From positions 1 to 38,985 of the forward strand of contig CACWID010000028.1 of NCBI GenBank assembly GCA_902760865.1: a stretch of DNA of 38,985 bases, given 5' to 3'. Positions within the stretch are counted from its first letter, which is position 1; each line of letters starts with the position of its first letter. Both the position numbers and the translations under genes were made by a program. Source of the stretch: an uncultured Bacteroidales bacterium (lineage in GTDB: Bacteria; Bacteroidota; Bacteroidia; Bacteroidales; Muribaculaceae). Of the stretch, positions 14,817 to 38,743 are shown piece after piece. Below the pieces are notes generated by a model. The model was not told the origin of the DNA, made no database searches, and saw only the letters and a program-made list of their open reading frames with translations.

Positions 14817-14825
14817 TACTCTGCG

Positions 14826-15059: not shown

Positions 15060-15099
15060 GTTATATATTAATAATGTATAACTAAAAACTTGTTCTCGA

Positions 15100-16641
<1,542 letters not shown>

Positions 16642-16659
16642 TTACACTCACAGGACTCA

Positions 16660-17742: not shown

Positions 17743-17790
17743 ATCTTATCTCTCTTTAGTGGTTTTGTTCTGTCTTAATTTACTCGTTGA

Positions 17791-19425: not shown

Positions 19426-19513
19426 ATTGTAATTTTTTTAGTTTCTAGTCCTTAGTTTCTAGTCCCTAGTTGTCGGCCGCTAGCAGCTGACAGCTAAAGG
19501 CTAATAGCTAAAA
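19426..19513. repeat. Heptamer arrays between nuoB and nuoCD
   Basis: On the minus strand two arrays follow each other: TTAGCTA, TTAGCCT, TTAGCTG, TCAGCTG, CTAGCGG, then ACTAGGG, ACTAGAA, ACTAAGG, ACTAGAA, ACTAAAA. Both have period 7 and lie inside the operon directly after the nuoB stop. They are the only such arrays inside the nuo-atp block. Confidence 0.75.
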
Positions 19514-19515
19514 GC

Positions 19516-20483: not shown

Positions 20484-20575
20484 AAAACGAGTTTTATTAT
20501 TGTTTGGTTTTAATTTTTGGCAGGTTAAATCATGCGAACATTCCAAAGCCCCTACAGCACAACAACTTATCACAC

Positions 20576-20587
20576 GCACGCGCGTGC
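20576..20587. other. 12-bp palindrome in the nuoA leader
   Basis: GCACGCGCGTGC, perfectly palindromic, in the predicted 5' untranslated region about 30 nt after the predicted transcription start. It could be an operator or a small RNA hairpin. Confidence 0.4.
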
Positions 20588-23798: not shown

Positions 23799-23837
23799 GT
23801 TAGGAGTTAGGAGTTAGGAGTTAGGAGTGAGGAGTTG
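23799..23837 (+). repeat. Heptamer array TTAGGAG
   Basis: Four TTAGGAG units plus TGAGGAG, starting at the base after the stop codon of the BspA-like gene. Confidence 0.85.
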
Positions 23838-24418: not shown

Positions 24419-27400
24419 ATGATGAGGACATGTAGAGTATTGTTGTGTGTCGCTGCCTGTCTGGCGGCGGTATTGCCGTTGCAGGCCCAGGAGCAGGTTT
24501 CGGCGTTCACCCAGGAACAGCAGGACGCCGTGCAGCGCATCGTTGCCAGCAAGTTGCCCGACCACATGGGCGTGGGCGAGCTGAAGGTGCGTTCGCTGAC
24601 CGTCGAGAACGACACCGTCAAGGTGGACGTGAGTGAGAACTTCGGCGACGTGCCGTTCACCGAGGCCGGCGTGGAGCAGATGCGCGGCGAAATCCGTGAA
24701 GCTCTGGGCCCGGAGTATGATGACAGCCCGGTGCTGGTCACTATCGTGGGCAACGACATCAACAAGTACTTTGCCGACTACGAGCCTGCCTACAAGCGCA
24801 GCCACAAACCCTTCATCAGCGAGCTGGACGCCAATCGCCACTACAAACACGGCCTGGACGGCAACATCGTGGCGATGTGGCCTAGCCACGGCTGGTACTT
24901 CGAGCCCCTGCTCAACCGCTGGGAGTGGCAGCGTGCCCGCCTGATGCAGACCGTCGAGGACATGTACACCCACAGCTATGTGCTGCCCTTCCTCATCCCG
25001 ATGCTGGAAAATGCAGGCGCCTATGTGTGGAACGCCCGCGAACGCGATACCCACAACTATGGCGCCGTCGTGGACAATGACCCGTGTGAACTGGCCCAGC
25101 AGGGCTACCACGAGCACGACGGCAAGCAGAAGTGGCAGACCGGCAGCGAGGCCGGGTTTGCCTTCCTGCGCGACCAGTACAAGGACTTCGAGAACCCCTT
25201 CACCGAGGGCACTTACCGCATGGTCAAGGCCGAGAAAGACAAGAAGAAACTGTCCACCGCCTCGTGGGACGCTGAGTTGCCCTACGCCGGCGAGTATGCC
25301 GTCTATATCTCCTACAAGACGCTGCCCAACAGTGCCCGCGACGTGACCTATACCGTCAACAGCCTGGGCGGAACGCGCCAGTTCCGCGTCGATCAGACGA
25401 TGGCTGGCGGCGTGTGGGTCTATCTGGGGACTTTCCAGCTCGCCAAGGGCATGAACAAGGCCGTCGTCGAGGTGTCCAACCTCAGCGAGGATAAAGACGC
25501 CGTCATCACTGCCGACGCCATCAGCGTGGGCGGCGGCTACGGCACCATCGCGCGCCGCGTGGCCCTGCCCACCGAGGAGAACCGGGCCATCGTCGCCGAG
25601 CAGAAGGCCCAAGGCGAGAACAACGAGAAATACCTGGGCAAGGAAGGCGTGAACTACAGCTACATCGGCAGCGGCAACCATCCCTGGTTCCACCTGGGAG
25701 CGCGCTACTACCTGCAGTGGGCCGGTTTCCCCGACAGCGTCTATTCCACCTCACACGGCATCAACGACTATACCGACGACTACCGCAGCCGCGGCGAGTG
25801 GGTCAACTACCTGGCCGGCGGCAGCGACGTGCTGCCCGACCGTGGCGGCCTCAAGGTGCCTGTGGACCTGTCCTTCTGCCTGCACACCGATGCCGGCGCG
25901 ACGCCCGACGACGAGATTGTGGGCACCCTGCTCATCTACTGCACCCGCAGCGGCGGCAAGCAGTTCGGCAAGTATGCCAACGGCACGCCGCGTGAGCTTT
26001 CGCGCCGCTTGGCCAACCTGCTCTCGACCGAGATTGTCAAGGACGTGCGTGCCAAGTGGGAGCCCAACTGGACGCGCCGCGGCATGTGGGACAAGAGCTA
26101 CTATGAGGCGCGCGTGCCCGAGGTGCCCGCCGTGCTCATGGAGCTGCTCTCGCACCAGAACTTTGCCGACATGAAGTATGGCCTCGACCCGATGTTCCGC
26201 TTCGACGTGAGCCGCGCCATCTACAAGGGCATGCTCAAGTTCATCGCCCAGCGCGACCACCGTTCCTACGTCATCCAGCCGCTGCCCGTCAACAGCTTTG
26301 CCATCAGCAAGGTGGGGGCAGGGCAGTACCTGCTCACGTGGGAGCCCACCCATGACGACCTGAGCGAGGGCGCCGACGCCACATCCTACATCGTGTGTGA
26401 GCGCATCGGGCTGGACGGCGGCTTCAAGGAAGTGGCCACCGTGCGCGGCCCGCAGTACACCGTGCACATCAGCGACAACAAGATGCACAGCTACCGCATC
26501 ATCGCCATGAACGACGGCGGCCGCAGCTTCCCCAGCGAGACGCTGAGCCTGGGCGAGGCCCGTGGGAGCAAGGGCGACGTGCTGGTGGTCAACGGATTCA
26601 CTCGCGTGAGTGGTCCCGACTGGTTTGATGGCGTGGAGCGTGCCGGCTTTGACGACAACAAGGACCACGGCGTGCCTTACATCCAGCAGATCAACTACCT
26701 GGGCTCGCAGTATGAGTTCCGTCGCGCCATCGAGTGGAAGGACGACGACTCGCCCGGCTTCGGCGCCAGCCGCAGCGACCACGAGACGATGAACGTGGCG
26801 GGCAACTCCTTTGACTACCCGGCAGTGCACGGCGAGGCCCTGATGATCGCGGGCTACTCCTTCGTCTCGTGCAGCCAGCAGGCCCTGGAAAATAACTATA
26901 ACACCGCCGATTACCGCCTGATGGACCTCATCCTGGGCAAGCAGAAGGAAATCTCGACGGGCAGCGGCCTGAAGCCCACGCGCTTCAAGATTTACACCCC
27001 TGGGCTGATGAATGCCCTGCGCAGTTTTACCCGCCGTGGCGGCAGCCTAGTCGTGTCGGGTGCCTACGTGGGTAGCGACTTGTGGGACAATGCCGCCGGC
27101 AAGAACGACGAGACCGGCAAGAGCTTTGTCAAGGAGGTGCTCGGCTTTGAGGGCCTGCAAGGCAGGGCTTCGCTCGACGGCAGTGTCGTGGCTGTCGATT
27201 GCCCGGCCGAAAGTCTGGCTGCTGATGGTACCTGGGGATTTGTCAACAGGCTGAACGACAAGCAGTATGCTGTCGAGTCGCCCGACGCCATCCGTGCCAG
27301 CGACGACCGCGGCTTCACCTGGCTGCGCTACGGCGAGAACGGTCTGCCCGCAGCCATTGCCAGCGACCGCGGCGGCTACCGCACCGTGGTGCTGGGCTTC

Positions 27401-27472
27401 CCGCTCGAGGCGTTGACCTACTCGAGCGACTGCACCAGCCTGCTGACCCGCATCCTGGAGTATCTTAAATAG
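24419..27472 (+). CDS. Secreted N-acetylmuramoyl-L-alanine amidase-like protein with golvesin-type domain
   Basis: 1017 residues with a signal peptide (MMRTCRVLLCVAACLAAVLP, then 'LQAQEQ'). An Amidase_3-like Zn peptidase fold is split: 'MWPSHGWYFE' with H157, then after an insert 'LHTDAGA' with H489, and 'VLMELLSHQNFADM' with E575 and H579 near the end. The insert (about 285-377, 'YAGEYAVYISYKTLP' to 'ADAISVGGGYG') resembles the golvesin/xanthan-lyase carbohydrate-binding-like domain. A fibronectin III-like domain follows (about 622-711), and a C-terminal part with 'LRSFTRRGGSLVVSGAYVGS' resembles a Rossmann or amidotransferase-like fold. Often labelled 'xanthan lyase' in Bacteroides; the amidase reading fits the visible residues and the neighbours. 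It would cut the MurNAc-peptide bond in the periplasm or outside. First gene of the salvage locus, behind a strong promoter. Confidence 0.82.
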   Translation: MMRTCRVLLCVAACLAAVLPLQAQEQVSAFTQEQQDAVQRIVASKLPDHMGVGELKVRSLTVENDTVKVDVSENFGDVPFTEAGVEQMRGEIREALGPEYDDSPVLVTIVGNDINKYFADYEPAYKRSHKPFISELDANRHYKHGLDGNIVAMWPSHGWYFEPLLNRWEWQRARLMQTVEDMYTHSYVLPFLIPMLENAGAYVWNARERDTHNYGAVVDNDPCELAQQGYHEHDGKQKWQTGSEAGFAFLRDQYKDFENPFTEGTYRMVKAEKDKKKLSTASWDAELPYAGEYAVYISYKTLPNSARDVTYTVNSLGGTRQFRVDQTMAGGVWVYLGTFQLAKGMNKAVVEVSNLSEDKDAVITADAISVGGGYGTIARRVALPTEENRAIVAEQKAQGENNEKYLGKEGVNYSYIGSGNHPWFHLGARYYLQWAGFPDSVYSTSHGINDYTDDYRSRGEWVNYLAGGSDVLPDRGGLKVPVDLSFCLHTDAGATPDDEIVGTLLIYCTRSGGKQFGKYANGTPRELSRRLANLLSTEIVKDVRAKWEPNWTRRGMWDKSYYEARVPEVPAVLMELLSHQNFADMKYGLDPMFRFDVSRAIYKGMLKFIAQRDHRSYVIQPLPVNSFAISKVGAGQYLLTWEPTHDDLSEGADATSYIVCERIGLDGGFKEVATVRGPQYTVHISDNKMHSYRIIAMNDGGRSFPSETLSLGEARGSKGDVLVVNGFTRVSGPDWFDGVERAGFDDNKDHGVPYIQQINYLGSQYEFRRAIEWKDDDSPGFGASRSDHETMNVAGNSFDYPAVHGEALMIAGYSFVSCSQQALENNYNTADYRLMDLILGKQKEISTGSGLKPTRFKIYTPGLMNALRSFTRRGGSLVVSGAYVGSDLWDNAAGKNDETGKSFVKEVLGFEGLQGRASLDGSVVAVDCPAESLAADGTWGFVNRLNDKQYAVESPDAIRASDDRGFTWLRYGENGLPAAIASDRGGYRTVVLGFPLEALTYSSDCTSLLTRILEYLK

Positions 27473-27474
27473 GA

Positions 27475-27537
27475 TCTAGACAATCTAGAATATCTAGATC
27501 ATCTAGACAATCTAGACAATCTAGAGGGTCTAGAGAG
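27475..27537 (+). repeat. Nonamer array TCTAGAnnn (7 units)
   Basis: Seven units of nine bases, each starting with the palindrome TCTAGA, begin 2 bp after the amidase stop codon. Each unit carries CTAG, a tetramer normally rare in bacterial DNA. Confidence 0.85.
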
Positions 27538-27582
27538 AAGAAAATCAATTATCAACAATCATAATAACAAAGAAAAGGAATC

Positions 27583-29070
27583 ATGGGAAGAATCAATTGC
27601 TTTATCCCGTTTGCTAACGCCGAGCAGGCCTCGCAAACCATCCAGAACCTCAAGGACCAGGAACTGGTGAACAAGATCTACCTCCTCGCCACCGAGGAGG
27701 GCGTGGCCCCCGTCGAGGGCTGTGAGCTGGTGCCCGTCAAGGGGCTCACCTCCAGCGCCACGATGCGAGCCGTCGCCGAGCGTGCCGACGCCGACTACGT
27801 GCTGCTCTACACCAAGTATGACACGCTGAAGATGGGTCCGTTCTCGCTGGAGCGTTTTGCCAAGCTGGGTGACGACACCTGCTCGGGCATGCTCTATGCC
27901 GACCACTACAATGTGACCGACAAGGGCGCCGACAAGGCCCCCGTCATCGACTATCAGATGGGCAGCCTCAGGGACGACTTTGACTTCGGCTCGGTGCTGT
28001 TCTTCTGCGGGCAGTGCTTCAAGAAGGCTGCTGCCGCGATGAAGGCCGACTACGAGTTCGCCGGCCTGTACGACCTGCGCCTCAAGCTGTCGCAGTTTGC
28101 TGCCATCACCCACATCAACGAGTTCCTCTACAGCGACGTCGAGCTCGATACCCGCAAGAGCGGCGAGAAGATCTTTGACTACGTTGACCCGCGCAACCGC
28201 GGCCGCCAGATCGAGATGGAGCAGGCCTGCACCGAGCACCTCAAGGAGGTGGGCGGCTATCTGGCTCCCACGCGCATCGTGGACGGCAAGGAGGTGCCTA
28301 ACTTCCGCCACATCGAGTTCAACCAGGGCGACTTCGAGGTCGAGGCAACGGTGATGATTCCCGTGCGCAACCGCATCCGCACCATCCGCGACGCCATCGA
28401 CTCGGTGCTCAAGCAGAAGTGCGACTTCAAGTTCAACCTGATGGTGGTGGACAACTTCTCGACCGACGGCACCCGTGAGGCCATCGCCGAGTACAATGAC
28501 CCGCGCCTGATCCACATCATCGCCGACTACTATGACATGGGCATCGGCGGTTACTGGAACCTGGCGGCCCACCGCAAGAATGCCGGCAAGTTTATCGTGC
28601 AGCTCGACAGCGACGACATGTACAAGGACGAGCACACGCTGCAGACGATGGTCAACGCCTTCTACGAGCAGAATGTGGCCATGGTGGTGGGTACCTACCA
28701 GATGACCGACATCCACCTCAATCCCATTCCCCCCGGCATCATCGACCACAAGGAGTGGACCCCCGAGAACGGCCGTAACAACGCCCTGCGCATCAACGGC
28801 CTGGGCGCACCGCGCGCCTTCTACACGCCCGTGCTGCGCGAGGTGAAGATTCCTAACACGAGCTACGGCGAGGACTACGCCCTGGGTCTGAACATCTCGC
28901 GTCATTACCAGATCGGTCGCGTCTATACGCCCGTCTATCTGTGCCGCCGCTGGGACGACAACAGCGATGCATCGCTCGACGTCGAGAAGATGAACCGCAA
29001 CAACCTGTACAAGGACCGCATCCGCACCTGGGAACTCCAGGCCCGAATAGCTCTCAACAAAAAACAGTAA
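27583..29070 (+). CDS. Family 2-like glycosyltransferase, two-part
   Basis: 495 residues, no signal peptide or clear membrane helix. The C-terminal part (about 255-480) is a GT-A domain: 'VMIPVRNRIRTIRDAIDSVL', 'LMVVDNFSTDGTREAI', and the metal/nucleotide motif DSDD at 342-345 ('VQLDSDDMYKDE'), with 'SYGEDYALGL' as a possible catalytic-acid region. The N-terminal part (1-240, 'INCFIPFANAEQASQTIQNL') looks like a degenerate second GT-A domain with no clear DxD. It probably moves a sugar from a nucleotide sugar onto an unknown acceptor in the cytoplasm. The next gene is a GalT-like protein, and I recall this pair as conserved in Bacteroidales. Donor and acceptor unknown. Confidence 0.8.
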   Translation: MGRINCFIPFANAEQASQTIQNLKDQELVNKIYLLATEEGVAPVEGCELVPVKGLTSSATMRAVAERADADYVLLYTKYDTLKMGPFSLERFAKLGDDTCSGMLYADHYNVTDKGADKAPVIDYQMGSLRDDFDFGSVLFFCGQCFKKAAAAMKADYEFAGLYDLRLKLSQFAAITHINEFLYSDVELDTRKSGEKIFDYVDPRNRGRQIEMEQACTEHLKEVGGYLAPTRIVDGKEVPNFRHIEFNQGDFEVEATVMIPVRNRIRTIRDAIDSVLKQKCDFKFNLMVVDNFSTDGTREAIAEYNDPRLIHIIADYYDMGIGGYWNLAAHRKNAGKFIVQLDSDDMYKDEHTLQTMVNAFYEQNVAMVVGTYQMTDIHLNPIPPGIIDHKEWTPENGRNNALRINGLGAPRAFYTPVLREVKIPNTSYGEDYALGLNISRHYQIGRVYTPVYLCRRWDDNSDASLDVEKMNRNNLYKDRIRTWELQARIALNKKQ

Positions 29071-29080
29071 TTGTCACTAC

Positions 29081-29152
29081 AACCTCACGCTAAGGCGCAA
29101 AGGCGCGAAGTTTTTAATTTTTCTTAGCGACTTAGCGACTTAGCGTGAGGTT
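29081..29152. repeat. Short inverted repeat of the CCTCACGCTAAGGCGC type
   Basis: AACCTCACGCTAAG (29081-29094) is inverted at 29139-29152, with looser pairing inwards around an AT-rich loop. It looks like a minimal, 72-bp version of the elements at 1120-1346 and 23854-24128. It lies between the glycosyltransferase and the DUF4922-type gene, so a transcript would form a long hairpin. Confidence 0.7.
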
Positions 29153-29165
29153 CGGGAGCAGAATA

Positions 29166-30125
29166 ATGGATTACAGTGGAGTGGTAAATAGGCTTATTGT
29201 CAGGCAGATGCGTGACTGGGATGTGGCTGGCGCCAATTATGCGGCGCTGGCCGGGGCCATTACGCGCTCGCTGTCGCTGGGAGAGTCCACTGTCACGCTG
29301 CAATTTAATCCCGAGAGGCGCGGCTCGTCGGCTGCCGCCATCGACAAGCGTTCGCTGGCCCGTCGCAAGTGCTTTCTGTGTACCGAGCTCCAACCCGCTA
29401 AGCAGAAGGCCATCCTGTGGGGCAACCACTACAAGATACAGGTCAATCCTTATCCCATTTTCTCGCGCCACTTGACCATCGCCGACCTGCAGCACGTGCC
29501 GCAGCACCTGGCTGGCAGGGTGGGGGACATGCTGCAGCTGGCCCAGTCGCTGCCCGAGTTTGTGGTGTTCTACAATGGCCCGCAGTGTGGCGCGTCGGCC
29601 CCCGACCATGCCCACTTCCAGGCCGGTGCCAAGGGCGAGATGCCGCTGTGTGACGAGATACTCCATGCCACGACGACCTTGCTGACCGACAGCGACGAGG
29701 GCTTTGTCGGCTATGTCGATGCCCTGGGGCGCAGCCTGTTCTCCATCGAGACCAGCACCATGCGCGCCGCCGAACGCTATGCCCTGCGGCTGCTCGACCT
29801 GTTGCCCGTGCCCGCCGGTGGCGACGAGCCGATGGTCAATGTGCTGTGCTGGTGGGACACGACCGACCGCCAGTGGCACATGGTCTTCTTCCCGCGTCGC
29901 AAGCACCGTCCCGCCTGTTACGGCGAGGGCGAGGGACGCCTGCTGCTCAGCCCCGGCGCCGTCGATATGGGCGGACTCTGGGCCGTTCCCGAACTGAAGG
30001 ACTACGATAGCCTGACGCCCGACATGGTCAAGGCCCTCTACGACGAGCTGTGCATGACCCGCAAGGACCTCAGCCCCGTCTTTAACGGCTTTTCCCAACA
30101 CTGGGAGAACATCCAACCGTTTTAG
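29166..30125 (+). CDS. DUF4922-type GalT/HIT-like nucleotidyl transferase or phosphorylase
   Basis: 319 residues from the ATG at 29166; an in-frame GTG at 29145 lies inside the inverted repeat and is less likely. No signal peptide. Two features point to the GalT/Ap4A-phosphorylase branch of the HIT superfamily: a CxxC pair (C69 and C72, 'RRKCFLCTEL') like the zinc pair of GalT, and HxHxQ (H148, H150, Q152 in 'APDHAHFQAGAKG'), the nucleotidyl-histidine motif. The following 'GEMPLCDEI' recalls GDP-hexose phosphorylases (VTC2 type). Expected chemistry: transfer of NMP to or from a sugar-1-phosphate or phosphate. The substrate is unknown; in this locus a sugar nucleotide used by the adjacent glycosyltransferase is the simplest guess. 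Confidence 0.78.
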   Translation: MDYSGVVNRLIVRQMRDWDVAGANYAALAGAITRSLSLGESTVTLQFNPERRGSSAAAIDKRSLARRKCFLCTELQPAKQKAILWGNHYKIQVNPYPIFSRHLTIADLQHVPQHLAGRVGDMLQLAQSLPEFVVFYNGPQCGASAPDHAHFQAGAKGEMPLCDEILHATTTLLTDSDEGFVGYVDALGRSLFSIETSTMRAAERYALRLLDLLPVPAGGDEPMVNVLCWWDTTDRQWHMVFFPRRKHRPACYGEGEGRLLLSPGAVDMGGLWAVPELKDYDSLTPDMVKALYDELCMTRKDLSPVFNGFSQHWENIQPF

Positions 30126-30153
30126 CTCCATTTGCGTTTTAGCGCAAATGGAG
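30126..30153 (+). terminator. 11-bp perfect hairpin directly after the DUF4922-type gene
   Basis: CTCCATTTGCG and CGCAAATGGAG enclose a 6-nt loop (TTTTAG), starting at the base after the stop codon. There is no U tract after it, so it may be an RNA-stabilising 3' end or partial terminator inside the locus. Confidence 0.5.
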
Positions 30154-30186
30154 GATTAGTGATTAGAGATTAGAGATTAGAGATTT
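30154..30186 (+). repeat. Heptamer array ATTAGAG
   Basis: Three ATTAGAG units with degenerate flanks (attagtg, atttggg), directly after the hairpin. Confidence 0.75.
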
Positions 30187-30241
30187 GGGGTTAGTGAGAG
30201 GGTCTATTTGATACAAGAACGAGAAACCAAAAACTAAGAAT

Positions 30242-31576
30242 ATGGACGAGAAACAAATACCGCAAGTGAGAGTGGGCATCATGAACGAGCCCGAGATTCA
30301 CTTTGTGCTCAACGGCGACTACCGCGTGAATGGCGTCGCCTGCAGCGGCGAACAGACGGCCCGCTGTGCCGACGGACAGGTGGAGTGGGGCGGCAACCGC
30401 TATGGCGAACTGCTCTTCGAGCCCGTCGTTGCCGAGAACGCCTCGTTTACCCTCAAGGCAGTGACCATCGGCGTGAGCTTCCACTGGAAGCGCCAGGAGG
30501 ACCAGACCTTCAAGGGCGCGCTGCACCTCATCGTCGAGAACGGCAAACTGACGCCCGTCAATGTGCTGAGCGTCGAGGACTACCTGCTGAGCGTCATCTC
30601 CAGCGAGATGAGCGCCAACGCCTCGCTCGAACTGCTCAAGGCCCATGCCGTCATCTCGCGCAGCTGGCTGCTGGCCCAGATCCACAATGACAAGGCCGCC
30701 CTCATGCCCGAGCGCCGTCCCGATGCCGAAGGCGAGATGAAGGAGACCCCCGAGGAACTCGTCAAGTGGTGGGACCGCGACGACCACGTCAACTTCGACG
30801 TGTGTGCCGACGACCACTGCCAGCGCTACCAGGGCATCACCCGCGCCACGACCGAGAAGGTCGATAAGGCCGTCCGCGCCACGTGGGGCGAGGTGCTCAT
30901 GCACGGCGGCGAACTGTGTGACGCACGCTTCAGCAAGTCCTGCGGCGGCGTGATGGAGGAATTTGAGAACTGCTGGGAGCCGCATCACCACGACTACCTC
31001 GAGGCCCGTCGCGACAACGAGGAGGAATCTAACTTCCCCGACCTGTCGCGCGAGGACAACGCCGCCGAGTGGATCCTGTCGAGTCCTGCCGCTTTCTGCA
31101 ACACCACCGACCCCGAAATCCTCTCCCAGGTGCTCAACGACTATGACCAGGAGACCAAGGACTTCTACCGCTGGAAGGTGGAATATACCCAAGACGAACT
31201 CGCCGCCCTGATCAAGGAGCGCACGGGCATCGACTACGGCCGCATCCGCGACCTGCAGCCCGTGGCCCGCGGCACCAGCGGCAGGCTGTACCGCCTGCGC
31301 ATCGTCGGCGAGAAGCGTGAGCGCATCATCGGCAAGGAATTGACCATCCGCTACGCCCTGTCGCCCTCGTGCCTGTACAGCTCGGCCTTCGTGGTCGAGA
31401 AACACGACATCGGTGGCGACGGCTACCCCGCCAAGTTCGTCCTGCGCGGGGCAGGGTGGGGCCATGGCGTGGGCCTGTGCCAGATCGGCGCTGCCGTGAT
31501 GGGCGCCCGGGGCTACGACTACAAGCAGATCCTGCTGCACTACTTCGTGGGCGCCAGCATCGACAAGCGCTATTAA
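30242..31576 (+). CDS. SpoIID/LytB-like lytic transglycosylase homologue, no signal peptide
   Basis: 444 residues. The SpoIID core is 'VEDYLLSVISSEMSANASLE' (about 109-128) followed by 'LLKAHAVISRSWLL'; E122 is in the place of the catalytic Glu of SpoIID. 'FSKSCGGVMEE' and the C-terminal 'GAGWGHGVGLCQIGA' are further family marks. SpoIID cleaves glycan strands stripped of peptides. The N-terminus ('MDEKQIPQVRVGIMNEPEIH') has no hydrophobic segment, so it seems cytoplasmic, unlike classical SpoIID. It precedes an AmpG-like permease by 46 bp. Either it acts on imported glycan fragments or it is exported in an unknown way. Confidence 0.85.
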   Translation: MDEKQIPQVRVGIMNEPEIHFVLNGDYRVNGVACSGEQTARCADGQVEWGGNRYGELLFEPVVAENASFTLKAVTIGVSFHWKRQEDQTFKGALHLIVENGKLTPVNVLSVEDYLLSVISSEMSANASLELLKAHAVISRSWLLAQIHNDKAALMPERRPDAEGEMKETPEELVKWWDRDDHVNFDVCADDHCQRYQGITRATTEKVDKAVRATWGEVLMHGGELCDARFSKSCGGVMEEFENCWEPHHHDYLEARRDNEEESNFPDLSREDNAAEWILSSPAAFCNTTDPEILSQVLNDYDQETKDFYRWKVEYTQDELAALIKERTGIDYGRIRDLQPVARGTSGRLYRLRIVGEKRERIIGKELTIRYALSPSCLYSSAFVVEKHDIGGDGYPAKFVLRGAGWGHGVGLCQIGAAVMGARGYDYKQILLHYFVGASIDKRY

Positions 31577-31622
31577 CAGCCTGAAAGTCTAGAAATTAAA
31601 AACTTAAAACCAAGATAATGAT

Positions 31623-32963
31623 ATGAAAGAAACAAATCTTGAATCGCAAAGACGGACACCGTGGTTGTGGATCCCCACGCTCTATTTTGCTGAGGGTATC
31701 CCTTACTTCGTCGTGAACAACATCTCGGTGCTGATGCTTGCCAAGATGGGTGTGCCTAACGGTCAGATGGCGCTCTTTACCAGTTTGCTCTACCTGCCGT
31801 GGACCATCAAGCCCTTCTGGAGCCCGTTTGTGGACATCATCCGCACCAAGCGTTGGTGGACCATCTCGATGCAGATACTCATGAGTATTGCCTTCATCCT
31901 GCTCACGCTGACGATGCCCAGGCCCGACGCGGCAACCATCGCATCGGGACAGACGCCCATCAGCATGTTCACCATCACGCTCATCTTGTTCGTGATCACT
32001 GCCTTTGCTTCGGCCACGCATGACATTGCTGCCGATGGCTTCTATATGCTGGCCTTGCGTCAGAACGAGCAGGCTGCCTTTGTGGGCATCCGCAGCACGT
32101 TCTACCGCCTGTCGTCGATCTTTGGACAGGGTGTGCTGGTGGCCATCGCCGGTGCCATTGAGTTGAAGAATGGCAACATCCCCATGTCGTGGATGATCAC
32201 GATGGGTGTTGCCGCTGTGCTGTTCAGTATCGTTACACTGTACCACACCTTTGCTATTCCACGGGTGAAAAGCGATGCCTCGACCCTCAAGGACGAGAAG
32301 CCCACGGTGGGTGCTATCTTCAAGGAGTTCGGTCGTACTTTTGTGACTTATTTCACCAAGCCATTCGTGTGGCTGGCCATTGCCTTCATGCTTCTTTATC
32401 GCTTGCCTGAGGCCTTCTTGATCAAGATGTGTACCCCATTCCTCGTCGCCAGCAAGGATGTCGGAGGCCTGGGTCTCTCGACTGCCGAGGTAGGCATCGT
32501 CTATGGCACCATCGGTGTGCTGGCGCTGACCATCGGCGGTATCTTGGGTGGCTTGTTTGCCGCCAAGGTGGGCTTGAAGAAATCCTTGTGGTGGATGGCC
32601 GCCTGCATGACCTTGCCGTGTGCCACGTTTGTCTACCTGGCTGTGGGACAGCCGACTAACCTTGTCGCCATCTCGGTTGCCATTGCCATCGAGCAGTTCG
32701 GTTACGGCTTCGGCTTCACGGCCTACATGTTGTACATGATGTACTTCAGCGAGGGAGAGTTCAAGACCTCCCATTATGCCATCTGCACCGCCTTCATGGC
32801 CCTGAGCATGATGATTCCGGGCATGTTTGCCGGTTATATCCAGGAGGACATCGGCTACGCCAACTTCTTCTGGATGGTCATGGTCTGCTGCATTGCCACC
32901 CTTATCGTGACCTACATGGTCGATCGCCGCATCGACCCCAACTACGGCAAGAAAACCGACTAA
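31623..32963 (+). CDS. AmpG-like muropeptide permease (MFS)
   Basis: 446 residues with about 12 membrane helices. The N-terminus 'TPWLWIPTLYFAEGIPYFVV' and 'LYLPWTIKPFWSPFVDIIRT' are very close to the AmpG pattern (the P-W-x-x-K-x-x-W-x-P loop between helices 2 and 3). The second half contains 'LFAAKVGLKKSLWWMA' and a 'MYFSEGEFKTSHYAIC' segment. AmpG proteins import GlcNAc-anhydroMurNAc muropeptides with protons. Its position between the SpoIID-like gene and the NamZ gene fits recycling. Specificity is inferred. Confidence 0.85.
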   Translation: MKETNLESQRRTPWLWIPTLYFAEGIPYFVVNNISVLMLAKMGVPNGQMALFTSLLYLPWTIKPFWSPFVDIIRTKRWWTISMQILMSIAFILLTLTMPRPDAATIASGQTPISMFTITLILFVITAFASATHDIAADGFYMLALRQNEQAAFVGIRSTFYRLSSIFGQGVLVAIAGAIELKNGNIPMSWMITMGVAAVLFSIVTLYHTFAIPRVKSDASTLKDEKPTVGAIFKEFGRTFVTYFTKPFVWLAIAFMLLYRLPEAFLIKMCTPFLVASKDVGGLGLSTAEVGIVYGTIGVLALTIGGILGGLFAAKVGLKKSLWWMAACMTLPCATFVYLAVGQPTNLVAISVAIAIEQFGYGFGFTAYMLYMMYFSEGEFKTSHYAICTAFMALSMMIPGMFAGYIQEDIGYANFFWMVMVCCIATLIVTYMVDRRIDPNYGKKTD

Positions 32964-32983
32964 CTTACAAACAACTGTGTTTT

Positions 32984-33010
32984 AACAACTGAATAATCTG
33001 AATATTCTGA
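32984..33010 (+). repeat. Left 27-bp arm flanking the GxxExxY gene
   Basis: Begins AACAACTGAATAATCTGA. Its reverse complement at 33443-33469 matches at 24 of 27 positions; the outer 19 are identical. Family member of the modules at 1501 and 20755. Confidence 0.75.
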
Positions 33011-33020
33011 TCTGATTATT

Positions 33021-33407
33021 ATGGTAAAGTATCTATATCAAGATGAGACCTATGCCATACGTGGTTGTTTGAACGCGGTTGCATTTGAGTTGGGTAGTGG
33101 CTTTCTTGAGAAAGTCTATCAGGAGGCATTAGAACTGGAATTTAAAGAGGCAGGAATTCCCTATGAACGCGAAGTTAAACTTTCTATTTCTTATAAAGGG
33201 AAAACGCTTCAACAAGAGTATATCGCAGATTTTGTTTGCTATGGTAAGATTATCATTGAACTCAAGGCGATTTCTCAATTGAATGAAGCTCATGAAGCTC
33301 AGGTTTTCAATTACTTGAAGGCAACAGGTCTGGATTTGGCATTGCTTGTTAATTTTGGCGAGAATCCTTTGAAAATCAAACGTTTGTTTAACTTTATGAA
33401 GAAATAA
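33021..33407 (+). CDS. GxxExxY protein (PD-(D/E)xK-like)
   Basis: 128 residues. The name-giving motif is GFLEKVY (27-33: G27, E30, Y33). D70 ('YIADFVCYG') and E80-L-K82 ('IIIELKAIS') match the D...ExK core of PD-(D/E)xK nucleases, to which the family (PF13366) is assigned. Function unknown; these genes are scattered and often linked to mobile DNA. Base composition is strikingly more A/T-rich than in the genes on both sides, and 27-bp inverted repeats flank it, so it is probably an inserted cassette in the salvage locus. Intact, no frameshift. Confidence 0.88.
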   Translation: MVKYLYQDETYAIRGCLNAVAFELGSGFLEKVYQEALELEFKEAGIPYEREVKLSISYKGKTLQQEYIADFVCYGKIIIELKAISQLNEAHEAQVFNYLKATGLDLALLVNFGENPLKIKRLFNFMKK

Positions 33408-33442
33408 GAAGCTAATCAGATATTATCTGTGTGCGGATGCCT

Positions 33443-33469
33443 TCAGATATTTCAGATTATTCAGTTGTT
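33443..33469 (-). repeat. Right 27-bp arm flanking the GxxExxY gene
   Basis: Inverted partner of 32984-33010. A GCGGATGCC segment (33433-33441), as found beside the copy at 1501, lies just inside it. Confidence 0.75.
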
Positions 33470-33489
33470 AATATAATATCAGTTGAAAG

Positions 33490-34743
33490 ATGAAGAAGAT
33501 ATTGTTTTTGGTAGTGAGTGTGATGGTGGCGGTGACGGCCGGGGCGGTCGTCAAACCGGGTGTCGAGGTGCTGCGCGACGGCGGGTTTGCCCCGTTGCAG
33601 GGCAAGCGCGTCGGGTTGGTGACTAACCCCAGCGGCATCGACAACAACCTCAAGAGCACCGTCGACATCCTGCACGAGGCGCCGGGCGTCAAGCTTGTCG
33701 CCCTGTTCGGCCCCGAACACGGCGTGCGCGGCAATGCCCATGCCGGCGATGCTGTGGGCGATGCCGTCGACCCGCTGACGGGCATCAAGATGTATTCGCT
33801 TTTCGGCAAGACCCACGAGCCCACCGCCGAGATGCTCAAGGACATCGATGTCCTCGTCTATGACATCCAGGACGTCGGCTGCCGCAGCTACACCTTCTAT
33901 GCCACCATGGGCGTGTGCATGCAGGCCTGTGCCAAATATGGCACAGAGTTCATGGTTCTGGACCGTCCCAATCCGCTGGGCGGCAACAAGGTCGAGGGCA
34001 ACCTCGTCGAGCCGGGCTATTTCTCGTTCGTGAGCAAGTATGCCATCCCCTATATCTATGGCCTCACGCCGGGCGAACTGGCCACCTTCCTCAACGAGGA
34101 GGGCATCATCGCCCAGGAGTCAAAGACGGGCCACGGCTGCTCGCTCACCGTCATCCCCATGGAGGGCTGGACACGTGACATGAAGTTCCGCGACACCGGC
34201 ATGCCCTGGGTGGCCCCGTCGCCCCAGATTCCCACGCCCGAGAGCGCCTTTTTCTACCCCGTGTCGGGCATCCTGGGCGAACTGTACATCTTCAACACCG
34301 GCATCGGCTACACGCTGCCGTTCCAGACGTTTGCCGCCTCCTGGATCAATGCCGACTCGCTGGCGATGCGCATGAACGCCCTGAACCTGCCGGGCATGCG
34401 CTTCAGGCCCATCAACTACAAGCCGTTCTTCGCCCTGAGCGTCGCCGTTGACAAGTCGCTGCAGGAGGTGCACGGCGTGCAGACCTACATCACCGACCCG
34501 GATGCCGCCAACCTGTGCCTGACGCAGTTCTACTTCCTGCAGGTCATCCATGAGATGTACCCCAATGTGCAGCTGTTCGAGCAGAATGCCAAGCGCTACA
34601 ACATGTTCGACAAGGTGTGCGGCACCAAGGAAATCCGTGAGCGCTTCATCAAGCGTTACCGTGTCGAGGACATGGCCGACTACTGGAACAAGGACGTGGA
34701 CGTTTTCCGCATCCGCTCCGCTAAATATTACCTCTACCACTAA
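33490..34743 (+). CDS. namZ: NamZ-like exo-beta-N-acetylmuramidase (GH171, DUF1343)
   Basis: 417 residues with a signal peptide (MKKILFLVVSVMVAVTAGAV). The DUF1343 pattern is complete: 'GKRVGLVTNPSG' (38-49), 'LFGPEHGVRG' (72-81) with the conserved E76-H77 pair, 'YDIQDVGCRSYTF', and 'LDRPNPLGG'. Members studied in Bacillus and Tannerella (NamZ) release MurNAc from the non-reducing end of peptidoglycan fragments in the periplasm or outside. The next three genes would import, phosphorylate and convert MurNAc, which supports this activity here. No ligand-binding data can be read from sequence alone. Confidence 0.88.
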   Translation: MKKILFLVVSVMVAVTAGAVVKPGVEVLRDGGFAPLQGKRVGLVTNPSGIDNNLKSTVDILHEAPGVKLVALFGPEHGVRGNAHAGDAVGDAVDPLTGIKMYSLFGKTHEPTAEMLKDIDVLVYDIQDVGCRSYTFYATMGVCMQACAKYGTEFMVLDRPNPLGGNKVEGNLVEPGYFSFVSKYAIPYIYGLTPGELATFLNEEGIIAQESKTGHGCSLTVIPMEGWTRDMKFRDTGMPWVAPSPQIPTPESAFFYPVSGILGELYIFNTGIGYTLPFQTFAASWINADSLAMRMNALNLPGMRFRPINYKPFFALSVAVDKSLQEVHGVQTYITDPDAANLCLTQFYFLQVIHEMYPNVQLFEQNAKRYNMFDKVCGTKEIRERFIKRYRVEDMADYWNKDVDVFRIRSAKYYLYH

Positions 34744-34788
34744 TGGGACAAAGGGACGGTTCTCTTGCCCCCAAAAAATGAAAATATT

Positions 34789-35949
34789 ATGGCTAAAGAC
34801 AATAAACGACTGCTGTCACTCGACATCCTGCGCGGTATCACCATCGCGGGAATGCTGCTGGTAAATAATCCCGGCTCGTGGAGCTACCTGTATCGTCCGC
34901 TGGCCCATGCCGACTGGATCGGGCTGTCGCCCACCGACCTGGTGTTCCCGTTCTTCGTCTTTTGCATGGGTGTGTCGATGGCGTTCTCTCTCAAGAAATT
35001 CAACTACAAGATGTCGCGTCCGCTCCTGTTGAAAGTGCTGCGGCGTGCCGTCATCCTGTTCTTTATCGGCTGGCTGGTGCAGTGGTTCGGCCATCTGGTG
35101 CGCGGCCTGTGCAAGGGAGACCCCTTTGCCGAGGCGGTGAACAACTGGGACACTTTGCGCTACCTGGGCGTGTTCCAGCGTCTGGCGCTGACCTACCTGT
35201 TCGGCTCGCTGTGCGTCGTGCTGTTCAACCGCAAGTTCATCCCGTGGCTCATCGGCATCATCCTGGTGGCCTACGCCCTGATTTTGGGCCTGGGGCACGG
35301 CTATGATTTCTCGCTCGAGAACATCATCGCCCAGATCGACAACAGCGTGCTGGGCTCCGACCACATGTACCACGAGAGCGCCTATGGCGAGCAGATCTCA
35401 TTTGACCCCGAGGGCATCCTGAGCACGCTCCCGTGCATCGCCCATGTGCTCATCGGCTATCTGGTGGGACGCATGATTCTCTCGGTCCACAACAATCCTG
35501 ACCGCATCTACAAGATGCTGCTGTGGGGCACCGTGCTGGTACTGTCCGGCTGGCTGCTGCAGTATGGCATCCCCTGTGGCAAGAAGATGTGGTCCCCGAC
35601 CTTCGTGATGATTACCTGCGGCATGGCGATGTGCATCCAGGCGATGCTCATCCACTTTGTCGATGTTAAGGGGAAGAAGGGCGGCTGGTGCACGTTCTTT
35701 GAGACCTTCGGTGTCAATCCGCTGGCGCTCTATCTGCTGGGCACGGTGCTGGCCATCCTGTTCGGCGCGATACCCCTCGGCACTGATGCCGAGGGCGGCA
35801 CCATCACCATCCACAGCGCAGTTTTCCACTTCTTTCAGAGCTTCTGTGACAACTACACGGCCTCGGCGTTGTATGCCGTCTGCTTCGTGCTGCTCAACTG
35901 GCTGGCAGGCCATGTGCTCTACAAGAAGAAAATCTATATCAAGCTATAG
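34789..35949 (+). CDS. MurT/NagX-like membrane protein (COG4299, DUF5009), putative MurNAc transporter
   Basis: 386 residues from the ATG at 34789 (MAKDNKRLLSLDIL); an in-frame TTG at 34765 is possible but less likely. About 10-11 membrane helices. The N-terminal signature 'LSLDILRGITIAGMLLVNN', 'LAHADWIGLSPTDLVFPFFV' (H40) is that of the heparan-alpha-glucosaminide acetyltransferase-like family. In Tannerella forsythia a protein of this family (MurT) imports MurNAc, and in other Bacteroidetes relatives (NagX) are proposed for GlcNAc. Here it lies between NamZ and the kinase, so MurNAc uptake is the best reading; acetyl transfer cannot be excluded. Confidence 0.83.
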   Translation: MAKDNKRLLSLDILRGITIAGMLLVNNPGSWSYLYRPLAHADWIGLSPTDLVFPFFVFCMGVSMAFSLKKFNYKMSRPLLLKVLRRAVILFFIGWLVQWFGHLVRGLCKGDPFAEAVNNWDTLRYLGVFQRLALTYLFGSLCVVLFNRKFIPWLIGIILVAYALILGLGHGYDFSLENIIAQIDNSVLGSDHMYHESAYGEQISFDPEGILSTLPCIAHVLIGYLVGRMILSVHNNPDRIYKMLLWGTVLVLSGWLLQYGIPCGKKMWSPTFVMITCGMAMCIQAMLIHFVDVKGKKGGWCTFFETFGVNPLALYLLGTVLAILFGAIPLGTDAEGGTITIHSAVFHFFQSFCDNYTASALYAVCFVLLNWLAGHVLYKKKIYIKL

Positions 35950-35991
35950 TCACAATAGTAGTCACAATAGTTTCTATAGTTACTATAACCA
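35943..35991 (+). repeat. Short TAGTCACAATAG-type repeat after the MurT-like gene
   Basis: AGTCACAATAGT is repeated in tandem and followed by a degenerate inverted part (tttctatagttactataa). Begins within the stop codon region at 35947-35949. Less regular than the other arrays. Confidence 0.55.
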
Positions 35992-36023
35992 AGACGGAAT
36001 AACAATTTAAAAACCAGAATATT

Positions 36024-36878
36024 ATGATGATTCTAATTGCAGACTGCGGCTCCACCAAAATCAACTGGACGCTGCTCAACGGAAAAGAAAAGGTGGCACA
36101 GATCTTCACGACCGGCATGAATGCTCTGCTGCTCACCGAGGAGGAAATGAAGGAACAGATCAAGCGCGAGCTGATACCGCACCTGACCAACTACAAGGTG
36201 GACGAGATCCACTACTATGGCGCGGGCATCATCTCGGACGAGATCAAGCAGCAGGTGGTCAACGCCCTGCGTGCCAACCTGCCCAGTGCGGGCAAAATCG
36301 AGGTGGCCAGCGACCTGCTGGCAGCGGCACGCGCCGTGTGCGGCCGTGAGCCGGGCATCGCGTGCATCCTGGGCACGGGCAGCAACTCCTGCTACTACGA
36401 CGGCGAGAAGGTCGTCATGAACGTGTCGCCGCTGGGCTACATCCTGGGCGACGAGGGCAGCGGTGCCGTGCTGGGCAAGCTGCTCGTGGGCGACGTGCTG
36501 AAGAAGCAGCTGCCTGAGCACCTGTGCGAGAAGTTCATGAAGGAGTACAACCTGGACTACACGACCATTATCACCTCGGTCTATCGCAAGCCGGCTGCCA
36601 ACCGCTTCCTGGCCCAGTTTGCCCCCTTCCTGGAGCATAACATCGACGAGCCGGCCATCCACAACATCGTGCTGCGATCGTTCACCGACTTCTTTACGCG
36701 CAATGTGGCCAGCTACCCCAATTACAAGGAGTTGCCCTGCAATTTCGTCGGTTCGATTGCCCACTGCGAGAAAGCCGTCCTGCACGAGGCCGCCCAGGCC
36801 TTGGGCATCACCATCGGCACCATCATCAAGGACCCGATGGAGGGTCTGGTGAAGTATCACTCGGCCGAGGTTGAGTAA
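36024..36878 (+). CDS. murK: BadF/BadG-type sugar kinase, MurNAc kinase-like
   Basis: 284 residues of the ASKHA/BadF family. Phosphate-1 motif 'IADCGSTKINWTLLNG' (5-20), phosphate-2 motif 'GTGSNSCYYDG' (117-127), and 'GYILGDEGSGAVLGKLLVGD' at the adenosine side. Two ATGs in a row make the start uncertain by one codon. Family members phosphorylate GlcNAc or MurNAc; MurK of Tannerella and Clostridium makes MurNAc-6-phosphate. Because murQ follows, MurNAc is the likely substrate, with GlcNAc as an alternative. Cytoplasmic. Confidence 0.83.
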   Translation: MMILIADCGSTKINWTLLNGKEKVAQIFTTGMNALLLTEEEMKEQIKRELIPHLTNYKVDEIHYYGAGIISDEIKQQVVNALRANLPSAGKIEVASDLLAAARAVCGREPGIACILGTGSNSCYYDGEKVVMNVSPLGYILGDEGSGAVLGKLLVGDVLKKQLPEHLCEKFMKEYNLDYTTIITSVYRKPAANRFLAQFAPFLEHNIDEPAIHNIVLRSFTDFFTRNVASYPNYKELPCNFVGSIAHCEKAVLHEAAQALGITIGTIIKDPMEGLVKYHSAEVE

Positions 36879-36926
36879 CGGCCATGCGGCAGGAGGATTT
36901 GTCATAATTAGCTTCGCGATTTTTAA

Positions 36927-37024
36927 TCGGCCTAACGGCCGAGAAATTAAACAAAATTATTAATAAAATTAAAATAAAAATTTATCTTGTTTAATTTTTA
37001 TACAAATTTTTGTTTAATTTCTCG
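36927..37024. repeat. AT-rich element with 17-bp inverted repeats and hairpin
   Basis: CGAGAAATTAAACAAAA (36940-36956) is perfectly inverted at 37008-37024. A hairpin TCGGCC-TAAC-GGCCGA (36927-36942) precedes the left arm, and CGCG-type pairing follows the right one. The interior is almost pure A/T. A related half (hairpin plus GAAATTAAAC) lies at 38829-38855. Confidence 0.65.
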
Positions 37025-37156
37025 CGTGAAGCGCGACTCAATTTGCAACGAAGGAATTATGATACAGCCTCCATGTGACGATGCACTTCGATAGCGGTAT
37101 GGCCTCGATGCAGCATCATTAACAATTTGATAGTAGAATAATTTTTTGATTAGATT

Positions 37157-37972
37157 ATGGCTTTTGTGAAAATCAGCGAACAAGAGTCGCTATACAATGA
37201 CCTGGAAAAGAAATCGGTGCATGAACTGCTCACCGATATGAACCGGGAGGACCACAAGGTGGCCGATGCCGTGCAACTGGCGATTCCACAGATTGAAAAA
37301 CTGGTCCTGGGAATTGTCGAGCGCATGAAGAAGGGCGGACGCATCTTCTACATGGGCGCCGGCACCAGCGGACGCCTGGGAGTGCTCGACGCCAGCGAGA
37401 TACCGCCCACCTTCGGCATGTCGCCGGGATGGATCATCGGCATCATCGCCGGTGGAGATACCGCCCTGCGCAACGCTGTCGAGAATGCCGAGGACGATAC
37501 CGCCCAGGGCTGGAAGGACCTGCAGGAGTATCACGTGTCGCCGCTCGACACGGTCATCGGCATCGCGGCAAGCGGCACGACGCCCTATGTCATCGGCGCC
37601 CTGCGCGACGCGCGTGCCAATGGCTGCCTGACCGCAGCCATCACCAGCAACCCCGATGCCCCCGTGAGTGAGGCTGCTGAGATAGCCATCGAGATGATTG
37701 TGGGGCCCGAGTATGTCACCGGCAGCTCTCGCATGAAGAGCGGCACGGGCCAGAAACTCATCTGCAACATGATCTCGACAAGCGTGATGATACAGATGGG
37801 GCGTGTCAAGGGCAACAAGATGGTAAACATGCAGTTGACCAACCAGAAGCTCGTGGACCGTGGCACCCGTTGGCTCGTCGAGGAGCTGAAGCTCCCCTAC
37901 GATGACGCCAAGCGCCTGCTGCTGCTCCACGGCTCGGTCAAGAAGGCCATCGACGCCTATCGCGGCCAGTAA
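37157..37972 (+). CDS. murQ: N-acetylmuramic acid 6-phosphate etherase
   Basis: 271 residues, a little shorter than E. coli MurQ (298). SIS-domain sugar-phosphate site: 'MGAGTSGRLGVLDASEIPPT' with catalytic E81; then 'AASGTTPYVIGAL', 'TSNPDAPVSE' and 'TGSSRMKSGTGQKLICNM'. It removes D-lactate from MurNAc-6-phosphate to give GlcNAc-6-phosphate in the cytoplasm. It follows the kinase after a 278-bp gap filled by an AT-rich inverted-repeat element, so it may have its own transcript. No frameshift. Confidence 0.95.
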   Translation: MAFVKISEQESLYNDLEKKSVHELLTDMNREDHKVADAVQLAIPQIEKLVLGIVERMKKGGRIFYMGAGTSGRLGVLDASEIPPTFGMSPGWIIGIIAGGDTALRNAVENAEDDTAQGWKDLQEYHVSPLDTVIGIAASGTTPYVIGALRDARANGCLTAAITSNPDAPVSEAAEIAIEMIVGPEYVTGSSRMKSGTGQKLICNMISTSVMIQMGRVKGNKMVNMQLTNQKLVDRGTRWLVEELKLPYDDAKRLLLLHGSVKKAIDAYRGQ

Positions 37973-37983
37973 TTTATCGCCGG

Positions 37984-38070
37984 TCTAGAATGCCTAGATT
38001 TTCTAGATTTTCTAGATCGTCTAGATTCTCTAGATTTTCTAGATTTTCTAGATCATCTAGATTGTCTAGA
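37984..38070 (+). repeat. Nonamer array TCTAGATTT (about 9.7 units)
   Basis: Ten starts of TCTAGA (one degenerate CCTAGA) at exact 9-bp spacing, beginning 12 bp after the murQ stop and ending 19 bp before the next start codon. Same family as 27475-27537. Confidence 0.88.
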
Positions 38071-38089
38071 CCCAATAGCAAGATTAGTC

Positions 38090-38743
38090 ATGAGAAGGTT
38101 TTTATTGCTTGCCGTGACGGCACTGATGTGCCTCACGGCCTTGGCCCAGGCCAATCAGGATCCCTACTATGCACGGCGGGCGACACTCTTTGACGAGTTG
38201 CCCATCGGCAATAAGGACATCGTCATGCTGGGCAACAGCCTGACCGACGGCTGCGAGTTCAACGAACTGCTGGGAAACCGCCACATCAAGAATCGTGGCA
38301 TCGTGGGCGACATCGTGCAGGGCATGATCGACCGCATCGGCCCCATCATCAAGGGTCAGCCCCGCAAACTGTTCATCATGTGCGGAGTCAATGACATCTC
38401 CCACGACGTCAGTGCCGACAGCATCGCCCGCGCGACCGAGAAACTCATCGTCATGGTCAAGCAGGGCTCGCCCAGGACCAAAATCTACCTGCAGAGCCTG
38501 CTGCCCTTCAACAACGATGTCAGGGAGTGGAAACTGCTCAAGGGGCGCGACCACGTGGTTGTCGAGGCCAACTTGCTGCTCGAGCAGGTCGCCCGTCGCC
38601 AGGGGGTGACGTGGATCAACCTCTACCCGCTGTTTGCCGACGAGAACGGCCGCCTGCGCTCTGAGCTCACCAACGACGGCCTCCACCTCATGGGCGAGGG
38701 CTACCTCATCTGGCGTGACGCCATCCGGCCCTACATCAAGTAG
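38090..38743 (+). CDS. Secreted SGNH/GDSL esterase
   Basis: 217 residues with a signal peptide (MRRFLLLAVTALMCLTALAQ). SGNH blocks: S50 in 'MLGNSLTDG', 'NRGIVGD' (68-74), N101 in 'MCGVNDIS', and D196/H199 in 'NDGLHLMGEGY'. Family members remove acetyl or acyl groups from sugars. At the end of this locus an O-acetyl esterase acting on O-acetylated MurNAc or sialic acid-like sugars is plausible, but the sequence does not fix the substrate. It starts 117 bp after murQ behind a nonamer array. Confidence 0.85.
   Translation: MRRFLLLAVTALMCLTALAQANQDPYYARRATLFDELPIGNKDIVMLGNSLTDGCEFNELLGNRHIKNRGIVGDIVQGMIDRIGPIIKGQPRKLFIMCGVNDISHDVSADSIARATEKLIVMVKQGSPRTKIYLQSLLPFNNDVREWKLLKGRDHVVVEANLLLEQVARRQGVTWINLYPLFADENGRLRSELTNDGLHLMGEGYLIWRDAIRPYIK

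Follow-up and report, generated by a model that had tools for sequence, protein, structure and literature searches.

What do a glycosyltransferase, a GalT-like protein and a SpoIID-like protein do in the middle of a locus for the salvage of N-acetylmuramic acid (MurNAc)? The question is raised by eleven genes at positions 24419-38743 of a stretch of 38,985 nucleotides (contig CACWID010000028.1 of GenBank assembly GCA_902760865.1; here called the window) from an uncultured Bacteroidales bacterium of the Muribaculaceae, whose genome (G000) is 95.21% complete. A first-pass annotation of the window had described eleven genes in one direction, and all eleven open reading frames (ORFs) were found on the plus strand at these coordinates. 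The families that it had named were recovered by profile searches, the matches of the amidase, AmpG and MurT/NagX proteins being under the cut-offs of the models and that of MurQ barely above, and its reading of the locus as a salvage route like the one of Tannerella forsythia was right; nine of the genes are present in the same order in the T. forsythia locus L142. Sequence comparison identifies it as the AmpG-NamZ-MurTKQ salvage operon of Bacteroidales already known from that organism. Within it, the family 2 glycosyltransferase (GT2), the GalT-like protein (DUF4922) and the SpoIID-like protein, together called the trio or the module when they are of the type found here, probably form one cytosolic unit tied to AmpG. 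So far as the literature searched shows, this view of the trio is new; there, the trio is treated only in papers on the T. forsythia operon, and as most subscription titles lay outside the search, earlier work elsewhere is possible. With a probability of about 0.45, we think that the unit processes the disaccharide delivered by AmpG and hands MurNAc to MurK and MurQ, in bacteria where AnmK is mostly missing and where no cytosolic NagZ was found.

Two sets of loci were used for comparison. The 47-locus set consists of the stretches around DUF4922 matches (45 from a draw of 198 Bacteroidales genomes, the window's own excluded, another, in G129, from a class draw, and the weak match L078), and counts in this set are lower bounds, as 12 of the stretches are shorter than 18 kb, mostly cut by contig ends. 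The best-80 set holds the 80 top-ranking matches out of 587 that were confirmed in genome_contigs and is biased to close relatives. In T. forsythia, the genes Tanf_08345-08385 are reported to form one nine-gene transcript (xanthan lyase, gtf, gtf, lytB, ampG, ybbC, murT, murK, murQ; PMC5388701, PMC7670621) and to be activated by the regulator GppX (PMC5388701), as seen by reverse transcription PCR and with a reporter. Nine window genes matched this operon (L142, NZ_JUET01000082.1) in order and strand with identities of 42-74%, where the 'xanthan lyase' is the amidase-like protein, the second 'gtf' is, by position, the DUF4922 protein, lytB is the SpoIID gene and the ybbC position is occupied by NamZ. 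Because L142 has nine of the genes in matching order and all nine families were found together in 39/80 loci of the best-80 set, the eleven-gene locus is not a product of chance. Carriers of the operon include the Bacteroides clarus and B. salyersiae strains of L126 and L122. The amidase-like, glycosyltransferase, GalT-like, SpoIID and AmpG genes had at first been taken for an extension of the T. forsythia route, but all of them lie within the published nine-gene operon (PMC5388701, PMC7670621) and in L142. The window additionally carries genes for a GxxExxY and an SGNH protein, which had been counted as parts of the system. They were rejected as members due to their rarity, GxxExxY being present in 1/80 best-80 loci (L083) and 0/47 of the other set and SGNH in 9/80 and 2/47, and both stand outside the conserved set.

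The 198 Bacteroidales genomes of the order draw were searched for seven families and for rpoB. DUF4922 was found in 47 of them, and after the weak match in G296 (E 3e-5) had been dropped, 46 remained. At E<1e-80, SpoIID of this type was detected in 48 genomes, namely in all 46 DUF4922 genomes plus G233 and G312 (the following match had an E value of 7e-16), and GT2 of this type in 47 genomes at E<=1e-60, again in all 46 DUF4922 genomes and, more weakly, in G312. In the class draw, DUF4922 was present in 5/149 genomes, the window's own included, and the other four belong to the same order. Members of the trio were fused to each other in 8/47 loci in three arrangements, namely GT2 with DUF4922 in four loci (L067, L069, L070, L079), DUF4922 with SpoIID in three (L060, L068, L075) and all three in L066, in an ORF of 1005 residues that runs to the contig end; long SpoIID ORFs due merely to an early mechanical start were excluded from this count. 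The first-pass annotation would have been contradicted if the glycosyltransferase, GalT-like and SpoIID genes never travelled with murQ. This neighbourhood check was run, and the trio does travel with murQ (14/47 DUF4922 loci; 51/80 best-80 loci), the link with ampG being tighter (34/47; 73/80). Other families were GT2 (39 of the 47 loci and 76 of the best 80), SpoIID (32 and 71), MurK (21 and 61), NamZ (15 and 63), the amidase (11 and 55) and MurT (6 and 54). The tightest set is GT2-DUF4922-SpoIID-AmpG, with all four present in 28/47 and 64/80 loci.

Modelling of the DUF4922 protein (predicted local distance difference test, pLDDT, of 93.1) gave a GalT/HIT fold with its catalytic residues, nearest to yeast Ap4A phosphorylase Apa2 and then to Arabidopsis ADP-glucose phosphorylase and GalT; the profile match to Apa2 had an E value of 3.9e-6. 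With these three enzymes it shares the fold and the HxHxQ-type site, but the identity amounts to just 10-16%. The residues C76, C79, H117, N144, S151, H155, H157 and Q159 were present in 128/128 rows of the alignment (CxxC, N, S, HxHxQ), and we take them to be the zinc and nucleotidyl sites of GalT. As its nearest kin are nucleotide phosphorylases, the model suggests that DUF4922 splits a nucleotide sugar with phosphate. The literature on DUF4922 found by our search concerned plant GDP-L-galactose phosphorylase only, some family proteins of which carry the domain (PMC9871823). The GT2 protein (pLDDT 90.3), which is above the Pfam cut-off and has the DxD and ED motifs of its family, showed no transmembrane segment. 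Its best fold match was the chondroitin polymerase K4CP (profile E 2e-19), which also has two GT-A domains. The full GT2 motifs of the window protein (D344 D345, E430 D431, R455 R456, in 122/123 rows, with a gap in the remaining one) are in the second domain, whereas its first domain lacks DxD, and whole-chain TM-scores to K4CP were just about 0.4.

A fold shared with a polymerase of two GT-A domains raises the possibility that the trio is biosynthetic, that DUF4922 makes or exchanges a nucleotide sugar, that GT2 builds a cytosolic glycan or glycoconjugate which SpoIID trims, and that salvage is coupled to a glycosylation product. GalT enzymes do make nucleotide sugars, an ORF of the GDP-mannose-dehydratase type is near the trio in 2/47 loci, and the T. 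forsythia operon has also been described as encoding enzymes of protein glycosylation (PMC5388701). We nevertheless regard a biosynthetic role as rather unlikely, since the first GT-A domain without DxD makes a two-sugar polymerisation doubtful and the tight link is the one to SpoIID and AmpG. Moreover, no flippase or polymerase was among the identified representatives when 11 representatives from 30 listed neighbour clusters of the trio were run against Pfam (one without a match); recurrent neighbours were a D-2-hydroxyacid dehydrogenase, a metallophosphatase, a sodium symporter, amidases and a MurF-alanine racemase fusion.

In the SpoIID-like protein, which matches the domain model of its family, E122, H182, C188, H192 and C193 were kept in 104/104 alignment rows, so that the catalytic Glu and an H-C-H-C motif similar to the one of Clostridioides difficile SpoIID are conserved; in C. 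difficile SpoIID, this His/Cys motif binds zinc (PMC6221140). In contrast to the SpoIID enzymes of sporulation and of Chlamydiales, the trio protein has no visible signal peptide or anchor and is fused or joined to nucleotide-sugar enzymes. A signal-like stretch within the first 60 residues was seen in 0/29 sequences, that of the window included, with a top 14-residue hydropathy of 1.57. Several of these 29 sequences start mechanically upstream of the true start, and a 23-row alignment (A2), in which the conserved protein begins with M..P.I.VGI and no signal, is the better evidence. All signal-peptide calls were made from hydropathy and by eye, with no dedicated predictor, on a scale that is not sharp (the top GT2 N-terminus reached 1.76). 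Since no signal peptide was seen in a protein that keeps its catalytic residues, SpoIID is probably cytosolic, and neither hydropathy nor inspection by eye indicated the extracytoplasmic location usual for its family.

The SpoIID proteins known so far act outside the membrane, and the first-pass annotation had assigned the gene to the breakdown of the whole wall, which would require export of the protein without a recognised signal. Known SpoIID proteins do degrade peptidoglycan (PMC6221140, PMC6635528). Export is highly improbable, however, in view of the absence of a signal-like N-terminus and of the fusion, in 4/47 loci, to DUF4922, which should need nucleotides; a periplasmic wall hydrolase was rejected on the same grounds.

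The tie of the trio to AmpG holds across genomes as well. AmpG-like proteins were found at E<=1e-20 in 65/198 genomes, in 46/46 of those with the trio and in 19/152 of the others (Fisher 4.5e-30); the TIGR00901 (AmpG) cut-off was passed by 0/198 Bacteroidales genomes, hence the label AmpG-like. AnmK was detected in 136/198 genomes (in a few by fragments only), with 5/46 trio genomes against 131/152 others (Fisher 2.5e-21), and 41 genomes had the module only. Both Fisher values ignore kinship, no correction for phylogeny having been applied, and the AnmK counts refer to the 198-genome draw, not to the best-80 loci. No match to AnmK was obtained in the genome of the window. An rpoB tree of 79 genomes picked by hand showed 10 changes of state for the module and 9 for AnmK. 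The raw exclusion between module and AnmK is strong, but replacement is not proven.

Compared to the NagZ-AnmK-MurQ recycling of Gram-negatives, import by AmpG and MurQ, leading to N-acetylglucosamine (GlcNAc)-6P, are common to both systems, whereas the window genome lacks an AnmK match and has the SpoIID/GT2/DUF4922 unit adjoining AmpG instead. No NagZ-like GH3 match reached the family cut-off in any of the 198 genomes, 182/198 having a sub-threshold match; none was found in 8/46 module genomes versus 8/152 others (p 0.014), which is a poor contrast. All 20 NagZ-like GH3 proteins examined (11 of them from ten genomes with the module, 8 from genomes with AnmK and 1 from a genome with neither) had a hydrophobic, signal-like N-terminus (1.79-2.79). 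The two matches of G000, both under the cut-off, have signal-like N-termini. MurQ was found in 26/46 trio genomes versus 19/152 others.

What the unit might do is suggested by work on T. forsythia, in which AmpG (48.6% identical to the window protein) is a functional permease and no AnmK is predicted (PMC7670621). According to that report, the wild type grew on GlcNAc-1,6-anhydro-MurNAc(-peptide) digests to an optical density (OD) of about 0.8 and on GlcNAc-MurNAc-peptides to about 1.3, growth on both GlcNAc-MurNAc(-peptides) and GlcNAc-anhMurNAc(-peptides) was lost in an ampG mutant, free anhMurNAc allowed an OD of only about 0.28 with or without ampG, and the handling of anhMurNAc 'remains to be explored' (PMC7670621). 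The ampG-dependent growth means that the anhydro-ended disaccharide enters by AmpG and serves as a source of MurNAc without AnmK, and these data would agree with a route that works on the disaccharide. The trio, always accompanied by AmpG-like genes in our sample, seldom by AnmK, and probably intracellular, fits this gap in the handling of anhMurNAc.

In the proposed route, AmpG would deliver GlcNAc-anhMurNAc or GlcNAc-MurNAc to the cytosol and MurNAc would later be passed to MurK and MurQ. We infer that the imported disaccharide is the substrate of the trio and that its three proteins act in sequence, and the steps between are more tentative. SpoIID might open the 1,6-anhydro ring with water, although this enzyme type is known for making 1,6-anhydro bonds. 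GT2, run backwards, might move GlcNAc onto a nucleotide, and DUF4922 might split the resulting nucleotide sugar with phosphate, the backward reaction of GT2 being the weakest step of the scheme. The SpoIID of the chlamydial Waddlia is a muramidase that cleaves denuded glycan hydrolytically (PMC6635528), and a SpoIID site can therefore use water as acceptor. A stronger form of the proposal, in which the trio is a new recycling machine replacing both NagZ and AnmK, with SpoIID opening anhydro bonds and GT2 plus DUF4922 acting as a two-step phosphorylase that yields GlcNAc-1-phosphate and MurNAc with no ATP spent on GlcNAc, seems unlikely to us.

Fusions and a cytosolic context would also suit a closed cycle in which the unit modifies the imported sugar, GT2 glycosylating anhMurNAc or the disaccharide for storage, detoxification or export and SpoIID releasing it again. 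It has been assumed by others that anhMurNAc is perhaps toxic to Escherichia coli unless phosphorylated, as reported in PMC7670621. Such a cycle would leave the co-location with NamZ, MurT, MurK and MurQ without a reason and would not lead to energy or wall precursors, and we consider it quite improbable.

Several observations weigh against processing of the AmpG-delivered disaccharide by the trio. GT2 enzymes normally synthesise glycosides, so that running one backwards would be unusual, and the literature searched gives no measured activity for any enzyme of the trio. The low growth of T. forsythia on free anhMurNAc may, according to the authors, be due to poor import (PMC7670621). In the 47-locus set, GT2 lies outside the retrieved stretch in 8 loci and SpoIID in 15. 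Some NagZ-like match exists in 38/46 module genomes, the N-termini having been viewed in ten of these genomes only. MurQ is absent in 20/46 module genomes, and the unit is therefore not strictly tied to the MurQ branch; the search did not extend to the other branch, AmgK/MurU, that T. forsythia is described to have. AnmK and the module coexist in five genomes, and 21/198 have neither. Finally, the exclusion depends on a small number of independent events: the supported branches of the rpoB tree gave 7 independent pairs with a difference in the module, and in these AnmK had changed in the opposite sense in 2-3, in the same sense in 0-1 and showed no difference in 4-5 (median p 0.25). This non-significant result, and the nearly uniform state of large clades in the tree, would be expected if the AnmK exclusion reflected ancestry only, that is one or a few deep splits of the Bacteroidales, with no functional replacement. 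We regard this as possible though doubtful, as opposite states are seen within a family-level group (e.g. G212 and G301) and as ancestry leaves the 46/46 coincidence of the trio and its fusions unexplained; it is compatible with disaccharide processing by the unit.

The genes of the locus are listed in the table.

Table. The eleven genes of the locus. Bit scores are those of window ORFs against Pfam and NCBIfam models; identities are to the counterpart in the T. forsythia locus L142.
Product	Position	Strand	Evidence and remarks
Secreted amidase-like protein with golvesin domain	24419..27472	+	Golvesin_C PF25275 83.5 bits; 43% identity; called 'xanthan lyase' in T. forsythia
GT2 protein, two GT-A domains	27583..29070	+	PF00535 67.6 bits (cut-off 23.3)
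DUF4922, GalT/HIT-type nucleotide-sugar enzyme (GalT-like gene)	29145..30125	+	PF16269 194.7 bits; other possible ATG start 29166
SpoIID/LytB-type lytic transglycosylase without signal peptide	30242..31576	+	TIGR02669 166 bits (cut-off 83.3)
AmpG-like permease (major facilitator superfamily)	31623..32963	+	TIGR00901 176.9 bits, under cut-off of 350; 48.6% identity to T. forsythia AmpG
GxxExxY protein, insertion rare among relatives	33021..33407	+	TIGR04256 142.7 bits
NamZ exo-N-acetylmuramidase	33490..34743	+	NamZ_N PF07075 283 bits and NamZ_C PF20732 122.5 bits, both above Pfam cut-offs; 53.8% identity
MurT-like MurNAc transporter, NagX/DUF5009 type	34789..35949	+	NF046061 120.8 bits, under cut-off of 480; MurT by position and 46.9% identity
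MurK MurNAc kinase	36024..36878	+	53.8% identity to positional kinase; similar to solved T. forsythia kinases PDB 8oqw/8ow9
MurQ MurNAc-6P etherase	37157..37972	+	TIGR00274 304.2 bits, narrowly above 302; 74% identity
SGNH/GDSL hydrolase, probable lineage-specific passenger	38090..38743	+	PF13472 78.2 bits

For the amidase-like protein, the Amidase_3 (PF01520) match of 23.9 bits is under the cut-off of 27 and the signal peptide was judged by eye. The MurT-like protein scored under both of its cut-offs. From the labels of the PDB entries, the window kinase had appeared nearer to T. forsythia K1058; this was rejected after direct comparison, which gave just 41.6% identity to the second, upstream kinase of L142 and makes the window protein the MurK ortholog. 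The upstream kinase of L142, encoded on the other strand, has no upstream equivalent in the window. MurK-like ORFs upstream of the amidase gene were seen in 27/80 best-80 loci (L080-L085 and others), and those of L080 and L083 were 56% identical to the L142 upstream kinase. In L080, a second amidase gene (774-3167; Amidase_3, 798 residues) with a sub-threshold match to a secretion tail was noted, and this amidase is near 10/80 best-80 loci. Scans of the locus for promoters and terminators gave no decisive signal. Tandem arrays of the 9-bp unit TCTAGAnnn fill the spacers 27474-27534 and 37984-38070, TCTAGA occurring 17 times in the window where 4.1 would be expected, and the spacers 23798-23836 and 30154-30185 contain short 7-bp tandem arrays.

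Among the neighbours of the trio, a flavin adenine dinucleotide (FAD)/iron-sulfur dehydrogenase of about 930 residues and of the D-2-hydroxyacid (perhaps D-lactate) type was found in 43/80 best-80 and 4/47 loci. The nearest listed gene before it was NamZ in 42/43 loci, and it lies between NamZ and MurT (L087-L159). A representative scored under the cut-offs of the named NCBIfam models, and the gene was neither seen in the window nor listed for L142. D-lactate released by MurQ could be oxidised by this neighbouring enzyme. A gene for the MurF-alanine racemase fusion is near the trio in 5/47 loci (L049, 2081-4534, and four others), the Pfam identification being that of the L049 copy only.

Elsewhere in the window (3301-20579, minus strand), ATP synthase genes, named by eye, are located inside the complex I operon in the order nuoH-[atp genes]-nuoI; atpG adjoined nuoI in 10/10 other same-genus loci of sufficient length (two were too short) and in 0/7 relatives from the order. 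Positions 21090-23798 encode a 902-residue protein with DUF285/leucine-rich repeats and a type I dockerin at its end.

In G000, of which about 95% is covered, no match to MurA (TIGR01072) was obtained at E<=1e-3, whereas 14/14 control genomes gave a match, 10 of them above the cut-off. This may mean that the organism, like T. forsythia, needs MurNAc from outside. The locus offers three candidate genes for the handling of anhMurNAc, a step that is stated to be open in print (PMC7670621). If the proposed route is true, Bacteroidales would have a second mode of wall-sugar recycling, with an intracellular enzyme of the lytic transglycosylase type and with a nucleotide-sugar pair in the role of a glycosidase.

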